A DNA stretch of 55,221 nt, from the NCBI RefSeq assembly GCF_000517025.1, contig NZ_KI912096.1, forward strand, positions 6,931 through 62,151, written 5' to 3'. This stretch comes from Halonatronum saccharophilum DSM 13868 (GTDB taxonomy: Bacteria; Bacillota; Halanaerobiia; Halobacteroidales; Halobacteroidaceae). Within the stretch, counting starts at the first letter, position 1; every line of letters begins with the position of its first letter. The notes below the pieces were generated by a model. The model was not told the DNA's origin. It did not search any database and saw nothing but the letters and a program-made list of their open reading frames with translations. Position numbers and translations under genes: made by a program. Shown in pieces: positions 6,783 to 34,169 of this stretch.

Positions 6783-7503
6783 TGGTGATGGCTTTGAGGT
6801 GGTAGAAGAGGGTGGAAGGTTGATAGCTGTTGAATGTGATTGTCGGGAGTTAAGAACAATCAATACAAAGCTGGAGTTTGCTAGGATAGATCAAGAGTTC
6901 TGCGAAGCTACTATTAGCGATTATAGGATTAAAGGCTATTATAAGAAAGAGTCTGCAATCGAGAATGCTATGATCTGCAAGAAGTCGGCGAGTGAGTATG
7001 TGCGAAGATTTGATGAGATGAAGAAGAGAAAGAAGGGGCTTTACTTTCATTCAAAGAGAGCAGGGAGTGGTAAGACCTTGCTAGTATCGGCAATAGGTAA
7101 TGAGCTGATTAGAAGGTATAAAGCCCAAGTTAGATTTGCAACTGCTGGTGAGCTACTTGATGCAATTAGGGCTACCTACAGTAAGGATTCTGAGCTTAAG
7201 ACACACCAGTTGATAGAGGCAGCCAAGAAGGTAGAGGTCTTGATAATTGATGATCTAGGCCAACAGACGGTAAAAGCAGATACAAATGATCATCTCTTTG
7301 ATATCTTCAACTATCGGATTAAAAGTGATGTGGTGACGATCTTTTCTAGTAACTGTAAGGTTGAAAATCTGCCTTATGATTATAGGATCAAGAGCAGGAT
7401 TCAAAGGATGGCCGTACCTATTCAAGCACCAGAAGAGAGCGTAAGGCAGACTTTAGCCGAGAGGGAGAATGAGGAGATACTGGATAGCCTACTGACAGGA
7501 TAA
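6658..7503 (+). CDS. DnaC/DnaI-type helicase loader ATPase
   Basis: A 281-residue AAA+ protein that should load the replicative helicase at the origin. It has a cysteine-bearing N-terminal segment (CPYQRCNGDGFEVV ... CDC, about 36-61) that may bind zinc, as in DnaI-type loaders. It also has a Walker A motif RAGSGKTLL (about 132-140), Walker B VLIIDDLG, a sensor region TIFSSNC and a terminal arginine-rich motif RIKSRIQRM. It starts inside the 3' part of the initiator gene in another frame, with GGAGAG upstream. That makes it translationally coupled. A decayed copy of its 3' end lies at 321-528. Confidence 0.9.
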   Translation: MEKLQEIITQTMEKVGRTKAVDLPKKQESSLEKERCPYQRCNGDGFEVVEEGGRLIAVECDCRELRTINTKLEFARIDQEFCEATISDYRIKGYYKKESAIENAMICKKSASEYVRRFDEMKKRKKGLYFHSKRAGSGKTLLVSAIGNELIRRYKAQVRFATAGELLDAIRATYSKDSELKTHQLIEAAKKVEVLIIDDLGQQTVKADTNDHLFDIFNYRIKSDVVTIFSSNCKVENLPYDYRIKSRIQRMAVPIQAPEESVRQTLAERENEEILDSLLTG

Positions 7504-7596
7504 GGGCGGTGCAAGGAGTATCGAGTTAAAAAAAGAAAGGGTAACTCCGCCCACGGAGAGTTTTTTGGTTTTTAAAAACTCGGAGGGGGATAAGGG
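7501..7596 (+). repeat. About 95-bp intergenic repeat, copy 1
   Basis: Nearly identical to 25861-25953. Both begin at the stop codon of a gene (GGATAAGGG). Both contain AACTCCGCCCACGGAGAGTT-like pairing and then AGTTTTTT...AAAAACT pairing, and end CGGAG-GGATAAGG. The two mutually exclusive hairpins, with a T-run after the first, could work as a terminator or attenuator before the regulator gene at 7633. Confidence 0.8.
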
Positions 7597-21388: not shown

Positions 21389-21753
21389 GGGGAGCAAGAG
21401 ATTAATGATAAAGATTATTTTTCTAAAATTTTATAAGAATAATGAAATATATTTTTAATGTCTTGTTAGGCAAGATACTTATTGATAAGATAATAACTTC
21501 TGAGAGGTAAGTAAAAGTGTGTCATCTAAACCATCTAAGTAGTAGGTATGAGTAAGTTGGTATAAATTTGGAAGATATAAGAGTTAAATTATTGATATAA
21601 TATAAGGTGAAGAACTAACTTAAATTAGTTAAGAGTGCAAAGTAAGAGTTGGTTCAAAACATAAAAGAGTAATCAATAACCACAAAGAAGTCAAGGGCCA
21701 ACGCCTTTGACTTTTTTAGTTACAAATTAAAAATAAGGGGGTGTTGTCAGTAA
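21389..21753 (+). other. Intergenic region before the packaging module
   Basis: No gene is seen in these 365 bases. They hold a GATATAATATAAGGTGAAGA segment (near 21593) that is also found at 28486, and then a terminator (21688-21717) 37 bases before the terminase start. The pair could mark a short RNA of about 110 bases or simply a duplicated spacer. Confidence 0.5.
21688..21717 (+). terminator. Intrinsic terminator, copy 2 of a repeated hairpin
   Basis: AAGTCAAGG pairs with CCTTTGACTT around GCCAACG, followed by a T-run. The sequence is almost that of the hairpins at 8372 and 28598. Confidence 0.85.
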
Positions 21754-22332
21754 ATGAATGATGAAGAGACCAAGATCATTAAATGTAGTGGAAAGAAAGG
21801 TGATGGTAGCAGGTGTAGTAGAAAGAATGAGGTCAACTCAGACTTTAAAGGTAATTGGTACTGCTGGCAACACAAAAAGAAGTCACAGAATGTCACAGAT
21901 GTGGAGAGTAAGGAGTTAGACCAGAATCAGCTTAAGGCTATAGAACTTCTTATCTCAGGAGAGTTTACTAAAACCGAGATAGCCAAGAAGTGTGACATCA
22001 GTAGAAGGCAGTTGTATAGGTGGCTGGAGGATGAATTCTTTAAAGAGGTTTACTACCAAAGGCTAGATGAGATCAAGGATAAGTTCAATCCTAAGTTGCT
22101 GAATATGATTAATGGTATTATGGATTCTACTAAGGTGGAGGAGATAGAGGAAGAACTTGATAAGATTGATGCTTTGGAGAAGTTATTTAAGCTGTATCAG
22201 TTATTGAATGGTGAGGCAACTGATATTATTAAGGGGGATTTTAAGCATAAGGGAGATATGAACTATAGGATTGATTTATCTTATATGAGTGACGAGGAGT
22301 TAGAAAAAGAGCTGGAAAAGATTAAGGGATAA
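21754..22332 (+). CDS. Terminase small subunit
   Basis: 192 residues. The N-terminus has a Cys/His cluster (CSGKKGDGSRCSRKN ... WYCWQH, about 10-40) likely to bind zinc. A helix-turn-helix, FTKTEIAKKCDISRRQLYRWL, follows near 70-90, and then a helical oligomerisation region. Small terminase subunits bind the pac or cos site and load the motor. It stands directly before the large subunit, starts at ATG with GGGGGTG upstream, and is the first gene of the head module. Confidence 0.82.
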   Translation: MNDEETKIIKCSGKKGDGSRCSRKNEVNSDFKGNWYCWQHKKKSQNVTDVESKELDQNQLKAIELLISGEFTKTEIAKKCDISRRQLYRWLEDEFFKEVYYQRLDEIKDKFNPKLLNMINGIMDSTKVEEIEEELDKIDALEKLFKLYQLLNGEATDIIKGDFKHKGDMNYRIDLSYMSDEELEKELEKIKG

Positions 22333-23882: not shown

Positions 23883-23937
23883 TAAGGGATAAGGGATAAG
23901 GGATAAGGGATAAGGGATAAGGGATAAGGGATAAGGA
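23883..23937. repeat. Heptamer array (TAAGGGA), seven copies plus a partial unit
   Basis: Seven perfect tandem TAAGGGA units followed by TAAGGA, starting four bases after the TerL stop codon and reaching the start of the next gene. The same unit recurs at many gene ends between here and 34133. Confidence 0.95.
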
Positions 23938-24700: not shown

Positions 24701-25864
24701 GTGGTTATAATTAATATTTTTAAGAAGGTGGCTAAGGGGTTGAGGGTGGAGGCTAATGCAAATAGGCCGAGGCTGATACCTAGTTATAGAGGGGGTAAGC
24801 CGGAGTTTAAGGACTGGGATACTGGGAGGGCGATTAGGGAGGGGTTTAAGGCATCGAGTTATGTTTACGCTTGTGTTTATCGGATTATGAAGACGGTGGC
24901 AAGTGTACCCCTGAAGGTTTATGAGGATGGAGAGTATAGTCCAGAGCATCCATTACAGATTTTATTGGATGATCCTCATCCTTTTTATAGTATGCAGGAT
25001 ATTATGGAGAGGATGGCTGCTCATCTTTATTTGGGTGGGAATTCGATTATTAAAATTGTGAGATTGGAATCGAAGGGAGGACTACCAGTAGAGTTATTTC
25101 CTCTCGATCCAGATAAGGTTGGTCCAGTAGCAGACCAGGAGAGGTTTATTAGCCATTATGAGTATAATGTTGGAGATAGGGTGGAGAGGTTAGAGTTTGA
25201 GGATGTAATTCATGGGATGTTTACTGATCCTGCTAATCCATACTGGGGGATGAGTCCACTCCAAGCAGCAGCGGCTATTGTTGATACTGATGTAGAGGCG
25301 ATTAAGTGGAATAAGGTTACTATGCAGAATCGAGCTATTACAGATGGGGTATTTGCTTTTAAACATGATTTGACTGGTCCTCAGTATAAGGAAGCTAAGG
25401 AGCATGTAAGGGAACAATATAGTGCTAAGGGGCGTGGTCCTTGGGTCTTGGGCAATCAGGTTGATTATATTCCAATGAGCTTATCTCCGACAGAGATGGA
25501 CTTTATACAATCAAGGAAGATGACTAGAGAGGATATCTGTTCTATCTTTCAAGTACCACCTCCAATGGTTGGCCTTTATGAGAAGGCTACTCTTTCTAAT
25601 ATTGAGACTGCAAGGAAGATATTCTGGCTTGATGGGATTATACCTTATCTGAAGGATGTCTTGGATACCTTTAATAAGAGCTTATCGAAAGAGTTTGGTG
25701 AGAATGTAGAGATTAAGGCTGATACGAGTATGGTTAAGGCATTACAGGAGAACTTAAATGAGAAGGTGGAAGCAGCTTATAAGTTTAAGCAGATGGGTTG
25801 GTCTTTAGATGAGATTAATGAGCGATTGGATTTAGGGTTTAGCAATTCAAGGGATAAGGGATAA
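24701..25864 (+). CDS. Portal protein (HK97 type)
   Basis: About 387 residues, with the family landmarks YVYACVYRIMKTVASVPLKV, HPLQILLDDPHP, RMAAHLYLGGNSIIKI, WGMSPLQAA and MGLYEKATLSN-like text (VPPPMVGLYEKATLSNIE). Twelve copies would form the ring through which DNA enters the prohead. The last residues, SRDKG, are encoded by inserted GGGATAA heptamers that also supply the stop codon. The start is uncertain: GTG 24701 overlaps GGGGTGG, and an in-frame ATT follows at better spacing. Confidence 0.92.
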   Translation: MVIINIFKKVAKGLRVEANANRPRLIPSYRGGKPEFKDWDTGRAIREGFKASSYVYACVYRIMKTVASVPLKVYEDGEYSPEHPLQILLDDPHPFYSMQDIMERMAAHLYLGGNSIIKIVRLESKGGLPVELFPLDPDKVGPVADQERFISHYEYNVGDRVERLEFEDVIHGMFTDPANPYWGMSPLQAAAAIVDTDVEAIKWNKVTMQNRAITDGVFAFKHDLTGPQYKEAKEHVREQYSAKGRGPWVLGNQVDYIPMSLSPTEMDFIQSRKMTREDICSIFQVPPPMVGLYEKATLSNIETARKIFWLDGIIPYLKDVLDTFNKSLSKEFGENVEIKADTSMVKALQENLNEKVEAAYKFKQMGWSLDEINERLDLGFSNSRDKG

Positions 25865-25953
25865 GGGCAGTGCAAGAAATATCGAGTTAAAAAAGAAAGG
25901 GTAACTCTGCCCACGGAGAGTTTTTTGGTTTTTAAAAACTCGGAGAGGGATAA
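25861..25953 (+). repeat. About 95-bp intergenic repeat, copy 2
   Basis: About 90 percent identical by eye to 7501-7596, including both hairpins and the flanking GGGATAAGG. It again begins at the stop codon of a gene, here the portal gene. Confidence 0.8.
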
Positions 25954-25993
25954 GGCGTTGGTGAAAATTAGAAGAGGGTGTTTGCATCTGGGA

Positions 25994-26200
25994 TTAGATG
26001 TAAATACCCTCTTTTTCTATTCGTTGTTTGATTTTGAGGAGTCTTCGCTTTTCAAAGTAGAGAGGAATTGTTTTTAGTGATCCTGCGGGATGTTGTCTGA
26101 TCTCTTTATCTACTTCTTTCATCATTCTGTTAATCTTGTTTATGTAGTCTTCTGCTGTGGGTAGGTCAGAGGTTAAGGATAACTGTTGATGTTCTTTCAT
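25994..26200 (-). CDS. Small helical protein on the minus strand, 68 aa
   Basis: The start ATG at 26200 has GGGAG seven to ten bases before it. The product is basic and helical (YINKINRMMKEVDKEIRQH ... FEKRRLLKIKQRIEKEG). It is the only minus-strand gene in the head module and lies beside the large RNA candidate. A DNA- or RNA-binding role is possible from composition only. Confidence 0.6.
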   Translation of the reverse strand: MKEHQQLSLTSDLPTAEDYINKINRMMKEVDKEIRQHPAGSLKTIPLYFEKRRLLKIKQRIEKEGIYI

Positions 26201-26344
26201 ATTATTACAACTCCCTTAATTAAGTTATTGTCTTATATTTATATTTTTCCACTTTCATACTCAAAATATACAAAAAATTAACAGATAAGATAAAAAGATG
26301 GTAGAGTTTGAAGATGTGTATAACATAAGTTGGTTCTCAAAACA

Positions 26345-27070
26345 TTCTCTCCCCACCCATAATCTTTTGTTGCTGGAAGGAGAAAAAGTCAAGGAGGAAC
26401 GCAAGGATGAGTAGTCCTTTACTTTTTGGACTGGGAGCATAGAATGGGCAGTGGTGGTGGAGAGGGGTTTAAGTTTTTTAGTGATACCTAGGCATGATGG
26501 GGAGCTGGGCGTTGAGTGGTTTATGAACAGATTAGATTATATTTTGCGATACAATGTGATGTTAGAAATAATTTAAGCGAGCCATGATGCCTCTAACCCC
26601 CTACCTTGGTTTATTTAGATTGGAAGGGGGGCTGCTAGATAGTTCGGAGGGAAACGGAGAACTATTTTGCAGCATTAGCATATAGTATCGAGCTATAGCA
26701 GATAGGGTTTTATCTCCCGGAAGCAAGCTGAGGACAGATGAGAAACTGATGCGTCATTTCTCATCGCCTCAAATCGTTTCCCTCAATCTTCCCTCTCCCC
26801 CATTTTAGATGCAACCTTTTTGGCGAAGTGGTTTGTCGAGCCTGACCGGGAAGGGAGTTAAAGGGAGAGGGGGTTTGGGGGAGAGGGAATGAGGGAGACA
26901 ATGGGGTTGCTGTAGGGAGATGCTCTTAGCCTGTCTGAAGGAGTGGAAGAGCTCAAAGATACCAGGTCCTACGCTAGTAGGTTGTAGCTTTGAGCTCAGG
27001 AAGGAGTGAAGAGAGGCGTTAGGATAGGGATTGTGATAGCAGGTGGTTGTGCTGCTATGACAATCCCTTA
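26345..27070 (+). ncRNA. Large, highly structured non-coding RNA candidate (GOLLD/ROOL-like class)
   Basis: About 730 bases that are clearly richer in G+C than their surroundings and carry no sustained open frame. Many long helices can be read directly: 26347-26357 with 26453-26464; 26383-26395 with 26415-26427; 26597-26602 with 26625-26630; 26631-26645 with 26659-26673; 26737-26745 with 26757-26765; 26791-26801 with 26877-26887 (11 bp); 26949-26958 with 26988-26997 (10 bp, with an inner 5-bp hairpin); 27027-27042 with 27052-27067. Size, phage location and ornate pairing match the known giant phage RNAs GOLLD and ROOL. Which family it is, if either, cannot be told without a covariance search. 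The strand is set by the surrounding genes and is an assumption. Confidence 0.72.
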
Positions 27071-27251
27071 CAGTAGTGTGTGGTTGTTTTTATAGTTAAG
27101 AACTTTATGTTTATGGATAATGTTGGAGGAATATATTTTTTTATCTAGAAAGAGAAAAGGTGTAATTATTAATATGTCTATGAATCATTTAATTAAGATT
27201 AGGTTATTCAACATAATATTGTACACTATCTACTTAAAAAAAGGAGAAAAA

Positions 27252-27782
27252 ATGAAAGCAATTTTAGAAAACATAAAAAATATTTTCATTGGTTTGATAA
27301 TATTAGTTGGTATAAGTATTATTCCAATGTTATTTATTGTGGGGCAAGCATGGGTAAGTGCAAGGATATTTCCATGGATTGTTAGTATTAATACTATAAC
27401 TTTATTATGTACATATATAATTTTATTACCACTTTGTATATTTAAAAGAGCAAGGAAAATAGCAGGTTCAACTATGGTTTTAGCTTCTTATGTTTTTGGA
27501 TTAATGATTTTGGTATGGAGTTTTTTAATAGTCTATTCTATGTGGGGATTAATAGGAATTATAATAGGAGCTTCAATTATAGGCGTTGGGACAATACCTA
27601 TTGCTATAATTGTTTTAGTTATCGAAGGAGCCTGGGGAGCATTAGCGTATTTATTATTTCTTATAATTACTTTTATTGGTACCAGATTATTTGGGGGTTA
27701 TTTAATTTCTGTTGAAGAAGAGAAAAGTAATACTATTTCTAAGCAATCTAAAGAGTTATTAGAAGAAGCACAAAAAAGTTAA
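27252..27782 (+). CDS. Polytopic membrane protein, 176 aa
   Basis: Start ATG 27252 with AAGGAG six bases upstream; the longer in-frame frame has no good site. Four to five hydrophobic helices are seen (starting near residues 10, 40, 75, 100 and 125), followed by a charged tail SKQSKELLEEAQKS. No family is recognised. It lies just downstream of the large RNA candidate and is more A+T-rich than the phage genes around it, so it is probably inserted cargo. A possible overlapping reading frame follows at its end. Confidence 0.6.
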   Translation: MKAILENIKNIFIGLIILVGISIIPMLFIVGQAWVSARIFPWIVSINTITLLCTYIILLPLCIFKRARKIAGSTMVLASYVFGLMILVWSFLIVYSMWGLIGIIIGASIIGVGTIPIAIIVLVIEGAWGALAYLLFLIITFIGTRLFGGYLISVEEEKSNTISKQSKELLEEAQKS

Positions 27783-27805: not shown

Positions 27806-27928
27806 TTGTTGATTGAAGAAGGCATAATTATAGAGAAAGATTTATCAAAAGAATCAGTTTTATTGAATGGGAAAAGAGTCCTTAAAAAAGAAGGATCAAA
27901 TAAGAAAAGATATTTAAGGGGTAATTAA
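27806..27928 (+). CDS. Short ORF after the membrane protein, 40 aa, doubtful
   Basis: A TTG-started frame with protein-like text (LIEEGIIIEKDLSKESVLL, then KRVLKKEGSNKKRYLRGN). There is no good ribosome binding site, and the frame is open upstream into the end of the 27252 gene. It may be a broken gene remnant or the tail of a frame-shifted product. Confidence 0.25.
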   Translation: MLIEEGIIIEKDLSKESVLLNGKRVLKKEGSNKKRYLRGN

Positions 27929-27958
27929 ATCGTACTATTTATTAGGAAGGTGATAAGA

Positions 27959-28414
27959 ATGGCAGGTTTAGATCTCTTTTTATTAGTTTTTGTAGTTTAT
28001 TATACAATAAAATTTTTGAGACATTATTATAAGTTTAAGAAATATGGAGGAGAAAAATTAGACTCTTTTAGTAATAAGTTTGGTTCTAATATTTTTATGA
28101 TAGGTTTCTTTGTGGTTTTTTCACTTCTGAATCTTTCTTGGAGTTCTAATTCTAGTAGAATACATCCGATATTATTTCAATTATTATTAATAGCTGAACT
28201 TATTGAGCATGTTGGCAGGGTACGTATATATAGTAATGGGATCTTTTATGGTGGAAAGTTTATTACATGGAGTGAGATTGATATCGTTAGAAAGTTGGAT
28301 AGTAGGGTTCAGATTCAAATTAAGAATCGTTGGCTTGGTTTAATTGATTTTGGCAAGATGAAAAGGGAGAAGGAGCTATTAGATTTAATAGAAAGTAAGC
28401 TTGAAAAGGGTTAA
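27959..28414 (+). CDS. Membrane protein with PH-like C-terminal domain, 151 aa
   Basis: ATG 27959 follows GGAAGGTGATAAG. Residues 1-20 and about 40-85 contain membrane helices (LDLFLLVFVVYYTIKFL; FMIGFFVVFSLLNLS). The C-terminal 65 residues (IYSNGIFYGGKFITWSEIDI ... VQIQIKNRWLG) look like the PH-like domain of DUF5673-type proteins. It may pair with the membrane protein upstream. Function unknown. Confidence 0.6.
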   Translation: MAGLDLFLLVFVVYYTIKFLRHYYKFKKYGGEKLDSFSNKFGSNIFMIGFFVVFSLLNLSWSSNSSRIHPILFQLLLIAELIEHVGRVRIYSNGIFYGGKFITWSEIDIVRKLDSRVQIQIKNRWLGLIDFGKMKREKELLDLIESKLEKG

Positions 28415-28597
28415 GAAATTAGGAATTAAGGATAAGTTGAATTAATCTTGAGATGAAAATGATAGTTAAATAGTCAATATAGGTGATATAATTTAAGGTG
28501 AAGAGAAAATTCAATTAAGAGTTAAAAATTAAGAATTAAGAATGAAGGGCAAAAATAAAGAGATTAGAAGCAAAACAAAATTAATAGTTAAGAAGTG

Positions 28598-28628: not shown

Positions 28629-28734
28629 TTTGCCATTATAAAAAGGAGGCGGTGGAAGAGCAAGGGATAGAGGATAAGGGATAAGGGATAAGAAACCTAA
28701 AAATCAAGATCATTAAAGATAAGAGGTGGTTTGT

Positions 28735-29331
28735 GTGCAATATAAGACTAAAAGAGTTCCCTTTGAGCTTAAAGATTTTGATCAGGAAACAGGTATCTTT
28801 ACTGGTTATGCTGCTGTCTTTGGTAATGTGGATGCTGGTGGAGATTTGATTCAAGCTGGTGCCTTTAGCAAAACCTTAAAGGATGAAAAAGATAGAATCA
28901 AGATCTGTTGGCAGCATGATCCTTATAGTCCAATTGGGAAGCCAATTGAGATGAGTGAGGATAAGAAGGGGCTATTTGTCAAAGGCCAAATCAGTGATAC
29001 TTCTTTGGGTAAGGATGTAAAGATACTGATGAAGGATGGGGTGATCAATGAGTTAAGCATTGGCTATGATACTGTTCAGAAGGAGTGGAAGGATGGTGTT
29101 AGGCATTTAAAGGAGGTTAAGCTATATGAGTTTAGCCCTGTTACTTGGGCCATGAATGATGAGGCTTTGATTACTTCTGTGAAGGGTAGTTGTGGGGTGA
29201 AGGATGTGCTTAATAGGGTTGTAGATGTTTTAGATAGATTATCAGAGAAGAGTGAGGTTAAGGAAGAAGATGAGGTTGCAAAGATGATGGAATCGATGGA
29301 AAGGTTGGAAAGAGCAGTTGATAAGGGATAG
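28735..29331 (+). CDS. Prohead protease (HK97 type)
   Basis: About 198 residues with FTGYAAVFGNVDAGGDLIQ, the catalytic His region CWQHDPYSPIG and the catalytic Ser region ELSIGYDT, as in the HK97 S78-type prohead proteases. It trims the capsid protein delta domain during maturation. GTG 28735 follows AGAGGTGG. The last residues (VDKG) come from the heptamer repeat, which also supplies the stop codon. It is separated from the portal by about 2.9 kb of inserted material, where these genes are normally adjacent. Confidence 0.9.
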   Translation: MQYKTKRVPFELKDFDQETGIFTGYAAVFGNVDAGGDLIQAGAFSKTLKDEKDRIKICWQHDPYSPIGKPIEMSEDKKGLFVKGQISDTSLGKDVKILMKDGVINELSIGYDTVQKEWKDGVRHLKEVKLYEFSPVTWAMNDEALITSVKGSCGVKDVLNRVVDVLDRLSEKSEVKEEDEVAKMMESMERLERAVDKG

Positions 29332-30896: not shown

Positions 30897-31276
30897 AGAT
30901 AAGGGGTAAGGGATAAGGGATAAGGGGTAAGGGATAAGGGATAAGGGATAAGGGATAAGGGATAAGGGATAAGGGATAGTTAAGGTCAAGGGATTTGAAA
31001 CCACGAATGAACACGAATAGACACTAATCAAGGTCAAAATAATTAAAGATTAAGAATTAAAGATTTAAGAGTTAAGAATTAAAGATTAAGAGTTAAGAAT
31101 TAAAGGTCAAAGTCGTTAAAGATCAAGGGCGTTGGAACCACGAATGGATACGAATGAACACTAATTAAGGTCAAAATAATTAAAGATTAAAAAATAAGAA
31201 TTAAGAGTTAAAGGTCAAGAGCAAGAATAGAGTAATTAAAGAGCTAAAGATTTATGAAAGTAGAGGTGATGTTATT
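30897..31276. repeat. Spacer with about eleven heptamer units and CCACGAAT repeats
   Basis: From 30899 to 30977 the GGGATAA/GGGGTAA heptamer is repeated about eleven times, starting just after the capsid stop codon. Then come two copies of a CCACGAATGNACACGAAT...ACTAAT element (31002, 31137) and AATTAAAGATTAAGA low-complexity runs. No gene is seen. Confidence 0.9.
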
Positions 31277-31675
31277 ATGATTAGGATGAGGGCCCTTAGC
31301 ACTTTTAAAGGTGCTGAGGGTTTTGTAGTTAGAGGGAGTGAGTTTGAGACTAGTGAGAGAAGGGCCAAGGTTTTAAAGAGGAGGAAATTGGCTGAGGAGG
31401 TTGTTGGCCCAGAAGAAGATAAGAGTGTTGGCCCAGGTGAGATGAAGGGAGATAATGAGGAAGTTGATGATTCTAAGGAGTTATTGGATGGGAAGAAGTT
31501 TAAGGTGGCTGATTTAGAAGAGGTAGCCAAGTTGTTGGAGATGAGTGGTGTTAGTGGATTGAATAAGGATGAGCTTATTAAACTGGTAAGTGAAGAGTTA
31601 TCTGATATGGGGTTTGATAATTTGGGGCAGGTGACAAAGGAAGAGGTTGTTGAAGGGATAAGGGACAGGGGATAA
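31277..31675 (+). CDS. Hypothetical head-region protein with SAP/HeH-like C-terminus, 132 aa
   Basis: The N-terminus (RALSTFKGAEGFVVRGSEFE ... RAKVLKRRKLAEEVV) is typical of small phage proteins found just after the capsid gene. The C-terminal part EVAKLLEMSGVSGLNKDELI resembles a SAP/HeH two-helix DNA-binding motif. The last residues (GIRDRG) and the stop codon come from a heptamer repeat, so the natural C-terminus may have been replaced. A head-completion or DNA-contact role is a guess. Confidence 0.6.
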   Translation: MIRMRALSTFKGAEGFVVRGSEFETSERRAKVLKRRKLAEEVVGPEEDKSVGPGEMKGDNEEVDDSKELLDGKKFKVADLEEVAKLLEMSGVSGLNKDELIKLVSEELSDMGFDNLGQVTKEEVVEGIRDRG

Positions 31676-31799
31676 GGGGTAAGGGGTAAGGGATAGTTAA
31701 GTTCAAAAGCATTAGAATCATAAAAAGTTAAGTAGGTTTATGTTTTTGGTTTTAAGGTTTTCTTATCCCTTCTCCCTCATAGTTTATAAAAAGAATAAA

Positions 31800-31922: not shown

Positions 31923-32438
31923 GTGGTTTTGGAGTTGTTGGAGGCATCGGAGGTTACTGCGGTAAGTGTGGCTGAGGTTAAGGAGCATTTGGGGATTGAT
32001 AATAATAGTGAAGATTCGTTGCTACATTCTTATATTAAGGCTGCTAGTAGTGCTGTGGAGAATATGACTGGGAGGGTGTTGCTTACTCAGAGGTGGAGGC
32101 AGTTGTTTGTTGGCCCTAAGCTACCTTTGATTTTGCTTAAGCGTCCTGTAGTGGAGGTTGTTGAAGTTAAGTACTTGGAAGATGGTCAAGAGGTTATTTG
32201 GGAGCCAGAGGAATATGGATTGTTAGGTTTTAAGATTGAGGGAGAAAGTTTACCTAGTAGGTATATCTATGTAGATTATAAGGCTGGCTTTGGTGTTGGC
32301 CCGGATGATGTGCCCGAGGATATTAAGCAGGTGATTAAGTTATTGGTTGCTTATTGGTACAATAATAGAAGTGAGGTTACTAAGGTTCCAGAAGGGTTTA
32401 AGGAGTTGCTTAGTAGTTATAGAACAATTTCTTTTTAA
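31923..32438 (+). CDS. Head-tail connector (gp6-like)
   Basis: 171 residues with VAEVKEHLGIDNNSEDSLL, YIKAASSAVENMTGR and a later VPEDIKQVIKLLVAYWYNNR. This is the usual pattern of gp6-like head-tail connectors that plug the portal and receive the tail. GTG 31923 follows GGGGGTGATT. Its TAA is the first three bases of a nine-unit heptamer array, so the original end may have been altered. It is the last structural gene seen; the genes for stopper, tail terminator, tail tube and tape measure do not follow. Confidence 0.85.
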   Translation: MVLELLEASEVTAVSVAEVKEHLGIDNNSEDSLLHSYIKAASSAVENMTGRVLLTQRWRQLFVGPKLPLILLKRPVVEVVEVKYLEDGQEVIWEPEEYGLLGFKIEGESLPSRYIYVDYKAGFGVGPDDVPEDIKQVIKLLVAYWYNNRSEVTKVPEGFKELLSSYRTISF

Positions 32439-32499
32439 GGGATAAGGGATAAGGGATAAGGGATAAGGGATAAGGGATAAGGGATAAGGGATAAGGGAT
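32436..32499. repeat. Heptamer array (TAAGGGA), nine copies
   Basis: Nine tandem units begin exactly at the stop codon of the connector gene. Read on the minus strand the array is stop-free and would encode repeated SLIPYPL. Confidence 0.95.
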
Positions 32500-32560
32500 A
32501 GTATAAAATTTTCCATTCTGGGAATTGATAATTGTACTATCAATTCGTGAGGTGGAGGTT

Positions 32561-33606: not shown

Positions 33607-34125
33607 ATGAAAATCATCATAGATGCTGGGCATGGGGGTAGTGATAGTGGTGCTGTCGGTGAGTTTTCTTGTGAGAAGGATATTACTTTGAAGTTGGCTA
33701 AGGTGGTTGGATTTTTGTTGGAGCATTTGGGTTATGAGGTGAGGTTGACTAGGGATGGGGATTATCTTCCTACTTGGGCTGAGAGGGTGGAGTCTAAGAA
33801 GGAGGATATTTTTATTTCTATTCATTGTAATGGAGCACCTAATCCTTCGGCGCAGGGGATTGAGACTTTTTATTATAAGGGGAGTGAGAAGGGTGAGGCG
33901 TTGGCCCGGTCTATTCAGGGTAGTTTGATTGAGGCTACTAAGGGGGTGGATAGGTTTGTTAAAGAGAACGATAATATGTATGTATTGAGGAGGACCAGGT
34001 GTCCTGCTGTGTTGGTGGAGGTTGGGTTTATCACTAACGAGTATGAGGAGAAGTTACTTAATTCGGCTGATTATCAGTTGAAGTTAGCGCTGGCAGTAGT
34101 GCAAGGGATAAGGGATAAGGGATAA
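33607..34125 (+). CDS. N-acetylmuramoyl-L-alanine amidase (Amidase_3 endolysin)
   Basis: 172 residues, all catalytic domain: IIIDAGHGGSDSGAVG (first zinc His), an acidic Glu in the EKDITLK region, SIHCNGAPNPSAQGIETFYY (third His) and PAVLVEVGFITNEYE (catalytic Glu). It cleaves the bond between muramic acid and the stem peptide. There is no cell-wall binding domain. The last residues, QGIRDKG, and the stop codon come from a heptamer repeat, so a former C-terminal binding domain may have been cut off. The holin lies just upstream, so the two form the lysis cassette. Confidence 0.93.
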   Translation: MKIIIDAGHGGSDSGAVGEFSCEKDITLKLAKVVGFLLEHLGYEVRLTRDGDYLPTWAERVESKKEDIFISIHCNGAPNPSAQGIETFYYKGSEKGEALARSIQGSLIEATKGVDRFVKENDNMYVLRRTRCPAVLVEVGFITNEYEEKLLNSADYQLKLALAVVQGIRDKG

Positions 34126-34169
34126 GGGATAAGGCGGGAAATTTTGTTATTAGAAATTGGGGGGATAGG

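Follow-up and report, generated by a model that had tools for sequence, protein, structure and literature searches.

Among the large structured RNAs of bacteria and their phages, ROOL assembles into a homo-oligomeric cage, GOLLD is an RNA whose level rises during phage lysis, and OLE RNA is known from extremophiles. Both GOLLD and ROOL are large RNAs carried by prophages; their function is unknown, and they often lie near tRNA islands (PMC12286853). The subject of this report is an RNA of about 0.7 kb located at positions 26345-27070 (+ strand) of a 55,221-nucleotide stretch of DNA from Halonatronum saccharophilum DSM 13868, the whole of which is referred to as the window. The window is a prophage, with genes for an integrase (1066-2754), anti-repressor, helicase loader, terminase, portal, prohead protease and capsid, and a first-pass annotation had placed in its head module a large, ornate non-coding RNA, regarded as a member of GOLLD or ROOL or as a new relative of them. 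The comparisons described below bear out the non-coding RNA, with strong covariation in its core and 3' domain: the region is almost certainly a conserved structured RNA, and it is judged from its sequence to be a new modular family of phages and mobile elements of Halobacteroidaceae, unrelated in sequence to ROOL or GOLLD.

The curated cut-offs of the covariance models are 99.1 bits for ROOL (RF03087) and 150 bits for GOLLD (RF02032). In the eight whole genomes that bear the RNA, neither model matches it even at an E-value of 10: the ROOL model gave a single match at E 0.4, elsewhere in genome G002, and the best GOLLD matches (at most 14.8 bits) also lay elsewhere and were alike in control genomes. 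No Rfam 15 family, group I and II introns, HEARO, OLE and riboswitches included, reached its gathering score at the RNA in the window or in eight loci, and cmscan of the region at E 5 returned chance-level families only, with ROOL not among them; no paper describing the RNA was found among the open-licence literature. Membership of GOLLD or ROOL has to be given up, and for a new relative by descent there is no evidence; what stands is an analogue, large and phage-borne. The likeness to GOLLD is one of architecture and not of homology: its conserved 3' region and variable 5' region find their counterparts in the core and 3' domain versus the 5' domain of the present RNA, which has another sequence and comes from Halobacteroidaceae. 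It is similar to ROOL in size and, like it, is carried by prophages; as for tRNA islands, two copies (loci L034 and L037) lie near tRNA genes and the window itself holds none. OLE and HEARO RNAs are likewise large structured bacterial RNAs, but such families remained unmatched here even at E 5.

The composition of the region agrees with its first description as some 730 GC-rich bases devoid of a long frame between A+T-rich flanks, since it holds no open reading frame (ORF) of 60 or more amino acids and the G+C content of the RNA is 0.42-0.52, against 0.27-0.29 in the adjoining upstream and 0.22-0.28 in the adjoining downstream DNA. The + strand folds at -283.8 kcal/mol (z -7.9 relative to 20 dinucleotide shuffles) and the minus strand at -223.6 kcal/mol (z -7.5). 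Seven perfect Watson-Crick stems of at least 8 bp are present (14, 10, 10, 9, 9, 9 and 8 bp), whereas 60 shuffles yielded 1.5 on average and never more than 5; the longest pairs 26789-26802 with 26876-26889, and the earlier count of at least eight long helices was right.

Three parts can be distinguished within these limits, which are set by the outermost conserved helices rather than mapped. The 5' domain (26345-26710, + strand) occurs in portal-type relatives only, and includes a closing stem (26345-26357/26453-26466) and hairpins at 26597-26630 and 26631-26673, as well as a hairpin at 26383-26427 (+) whose near-invariant loop carries AAGGAGG and ATGAGTAG. In this domain, window positions 26390-26412 show the near-invariant, Shine-Dalgarno-like AAGGAGG about 9 bases 5' of ATGAGTAGTCC; the site may conceivably bind ribosomes or give rise to a tiny peptide. 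The conserved core (26711-26924, +; model R1) is made of helices P1 (26711-26718/26915-26922), P2 (26722-26729/26904-26911), P3 (26730-26770), P4 (26776-26802/26876-26899) and P5 (26811-26858), and the conserved 3' domain (26911-27072, +; model R2) of hairpin P7 (26949-26997) within short helices and the end hairpin P10 (27026-27068). The core also contains, at 26846-26880 (+), a conserved G-tract array, GGGAAGGGAGTTAAAGGGAGAGGGGGTTTGGGGG, almost invariant among copies (GGG..GGG..GGGGG-TTT-GGGGG) and mirror-symmetric with the strand forming P4. The first half of the array is a mirror image of the strand pairing with the C-rich strand; in five copies no more than 30 of 1000 letter shuffles attain its mirror score, and in three of the five no more than 3 do, the control being a simple shuffle only; formation of a triplex or quadruplex by this array is conceivable.

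The covariation of these helices was evaluated on separate alignments. In the core (A1, nine sequences), 97.8% of the cells of 60 pairs are paired and 21 pairs show two-sided change, with 52 two-sided cells versus 18 in shuffles; in the 3' domain (A2, eleven sequences), two-sided change affects 22 of 35 pairs, with 53 such cells versus 15.5. In neither case did any of 500 shuffles score as high, and the signal disappeared from both alignments when partner columns were slid by 1-3 positions. When all 26 matches of model R2 are taken, 32 of the 35 pairs show two-sided change, in an alignment fitted to the model and including stand-alone hairpins. For the 5' domain (A3) the figure is 7 of 69 pairs; covariation is scarce there because its six copies are close relatives only, and its helices are plausible rather than proved. 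Refutation by lack of covariation among homologues, envisaged in the first-pass annotation, therefore failed, and so did refutation by a conserved open frame, as the large inserts among relatives have lengths not divisible by three, which rules out such a frame. Moreover, in a strand-neutral fold with G-U pairs forbidden, the + strand has 26 G-U cells against 9 A-C cells (the cells not being independent), so that the conserved RNA is likely the + strand. By its elaborate covarying secondary structure, its lack of a conserved frame and its carriage by phages and mobile elements, it qualifies as a large phage-borne structured non-coding RNA.

Relatives were sought by DNA search of 151 genomes and by model search of the 59 genomes of the class. 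The RNA was found in eight of the latter, seven of them among the eight genomes of Halobacteroidaceae, the family of the window, and one from another family; two, both Halobacteroidaceae, belong to Natroniella acetigena and N. sulfidigena. About ten intact copies in eight genomes make up the sample. Additionally, a 6-kb IMG/VR contig carries a portal gene 88% identical to that of the window, a divergent ORF of 68 amino acids in the same place and the RNA as far as mid-core, where the contig ends; pattern scans of IMG/VR gave no carrier beyond this one. Searching 398 genomes of the phylum with both models gave no credible match outside the class, a match in G215 being discarded as low-complexity sequence (GTGGTAGTGG), and BLAST against phages and plasmids returned nothing, or chance pieces covering 4%. 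Within the window, an R2 match at 25847-26018 falls on a terminator-like hairpin and was taken as chance.

The copies are modular. The core and the 3' domain form the conserved part, of about 360 nucleotides, whereas the 5' domain joined to it can be replaced. The Natroniella copies consist of a short lead, core and 3' domain (about 0.43 kb) and finish in a hairpin followed by GTTTGTTTTTGG; this end hairpin also stands alone in Natroniella, followed by a T-run, like an intrinsic terminator. Several of these stand-alone hairpins adjoin an intergenic repeat (AGTCAGATCTTAAACAGATCTGGCTTTTTTCTTTTCGGGCCAAC), located around the R2 matches L105 4476-4571 and L106 1077-1172 and in L040 near 2700. The copy in G025 differs in its 5' part, which is G+C-rich, and lacks a recognisable 3' domain, and that in G002 lacks a recognisable 5' domain. 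A 3' domain free of the core is present in G004 (contig C29, near 35418) and in G002 (near 2151162). Furthermore, extra hairpins occur at fixed points, such as a 34-nucleotide core insert in L033 and L034 and a longer insert in L034 and L035.

In the window the RNA lies between the portal gene (24701-25864) and the prohead protease gene (28726-29331), as first noticed. The intervening 2.86 kb contain a divergent gene of 68 amino acids, the RNA and two accessory ORFs, and the order in this prophage lineage is portal, divergent gene, RNA, one or more variable accessory genes and, where preserved, protease. A terminator-like hairpin (25970-26015, +) follows the portal gene and overlaps the end of the divergent gene. 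When relatives are compared, the conserved unit exceeds the limits first assigned to it, reaching upstream to about 25990 (the divergent gene) and downstream to about 27168, as a short stretch 3' of the RNA (27111-27168, +) is found too in L033, L044 and L087. The accessory genes of the window encode a predicted membrane protein of 176 amino acids (27252-27782, +), with a good ribosome-binding site at its start and no family match, and a product of 154 amino acids without clear family (27950-28414, +). The other copies have different neighbours: in L034 an integrase and tRNA genes, in L037 prophage replication genes together with integrase, tRNA and tmRNA, in L036 a holin and endolysin preceded by the RNA, in L040 a HaeIII-type restriction enzyme and methyltransferase, and in L039 a PHP/SMC-like gene. 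The idea of an RNA belonging to a defence system was dropped, since the restriction or PHP/SMC-like genes lie beside Natroniella copies only and not in the portal-type prophages.

The most likely role of such an RNA would be that of a discrete, multidomain structural RNA of about 0.7 kb, transcribed separately from the + strand and acting in trans during the life of the phage in the cell, and we assign this reading, which seems better than that of a cis-acting leader, a probability of roughly 0.6. It is borne by prophages and other mobile elements of Halobacteroidaceae, its fold combining the conserved core and 3' domain with an exchangeable 5' domain. The varied gene contexts and the lack of a fixed partner gene are easier to explain by action in trans. 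The covariation, the bias towards the + strand, the frame-breaking inserts, the terminator-like ends of the Natroniella copies and a prophage remnant of the same genome that retains both flanks but not 26171-27068 count in favour of this reading as well. By analogy with what has been proposed for ROOL and GOLLD, the RNA may form an oligomer or an RNA-protein particle, and in portal-type prophages the small divergent protein could be its partner. Several observations weigh against this interpretation, namely the weak promoter matches in the window, the absence of a T-run directly adjoining the end hairpin there, the small sample and the little covariation in the 5' domain.

The chief rival, possible although clearly less probable, is a long cis-acting leader that would act on the downstream accessory genes through attenuation, antitermination or translation control, the RNA being kept and the gene exchanged. 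The gene that follows the RNA does change from one portal-type prophage to the next: the 176-amino-acid membrane protein in the window, Big_2 repeats in L031, an LRR protein in L033 and DUF6414 in L044. Of 12 copies, 10 are followed by a gene on their own strand, the holin of L036 has its start codon about 30 nucleotides 3' of the last hairpin, and the stretch 3' of the RNA is conserved in three relatives; the first two of these count at the same time against a discrete RNA. However, same-strand genes are the rule within phage operons, the spacers range from about 30 to more than 500 nucleotides, the next gene is convergent in L035 and L038, and a terminator-like hairpin closes the Natroniella copies. 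In size and complexity, moreover, the RNA goes well beyond known leaders.

The existence of sites without the RNA bears on a second alternative. In the same genome, L087 3964-8748 (contig C8) is the remnant of a second prophage, related to that of the window, pieces of which match window 21684-22112, 25942-26170, 27069-27184, 27926-28575 and 31186-31617. The match extends up to 26170 (89.7%) and resumes from 27069 (84.6%), so that 26171-27068 are missing. This gap takes away the RNA along with the opening codons of the small gene, and its 3' breakpoint lies directly behind the end hairpin. A reading as an empty insertion site was rejected, since the loss extends into the start of the small gene; this is a natural deletion, and both the remnant and its host get by without the RNA. 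Flanks that lack the RNA between them occur a second time at L043 1598-1726 (G006, Natroniella), beside a transposase gene, where the sequence of window 26284-26314 is almost directly joined to that from about 27060 onward. These two sites, the decayed copies and the presence of several copies per genome in different places would suit a selfish element, in which a self-splicing intron, guide RNA or transposon RNA spreads between sites. This is nevertheless improbable, as no intron, HEARO or other mobile-RNA family matches, no protein gene is common to all copies and no gene is interrupted in the loci read; besides, the window, L031, L032, L035 and the IMG/VR contig share the portal flank, which fits inheritance of the RNA with the phage.

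Finally, a DNA-packaging RNA of the phage head like phi29 pRNA, itself a structured phage RNA tied to the head, is suggested by the position directly 3' of the portal gene, which the copy of the window has in common with its closest relatives. It is nevertheless very improbable, given that elsewhere the RNA occurs in modules for lysis or replication or next to restriction genes, that the phage has an ordinary large terminase and that pRNA is not known outside phi29-like phages. The RNA is also about four times larger than pRNA.

Beside the discrete RNA favoured here, the divergent gene (25994-26200, minus strand; 67-68 amino acids) is found in portal-type relatives only. Its product is about 70% identical between the window and relatives (tblastn) and its dN/dS is 0.08-0.21 among three relatives; the ORF is a real gene. 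The small protein has no phage match. Two kinds of repeats were also observed. A 7-bp unit, TAAGGGA (and rotations), forms tandem arrays between prophage structural genes, with copies up to 100% identical, at window 23883-23936, 30898-30978, 31653-31695, 32436-32500 and 34103-34134, and an intergenic repeat of 98 bp, 94% identical, lies 3' of two unrelated genes (7498-7595 and 25859-25955).

Only a handful of large structured phage RNA families are known, and their function is unsolved. It is a rather speculative, even doubtful, extension of the present data that this RNA represents a new class of phage RNA, evolved independently and assembling into particles or cages, in which interchangeable domains surround a G-tract core able to form a triplex or quadruplex and which in some phages has a small dedicated protein as its partner. 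Copies of modular build, about 0.4 to 0.7 kb long, point to the core plus 3' domain as the minimal unit, the divergent small gene is a candidate partner, and the RNA-less remnant in the same genome provides a natural comparison. An unrelated family of the same broad architecture would, if true, point to a common need for which phages have evolved RNAs of this kind time and again.
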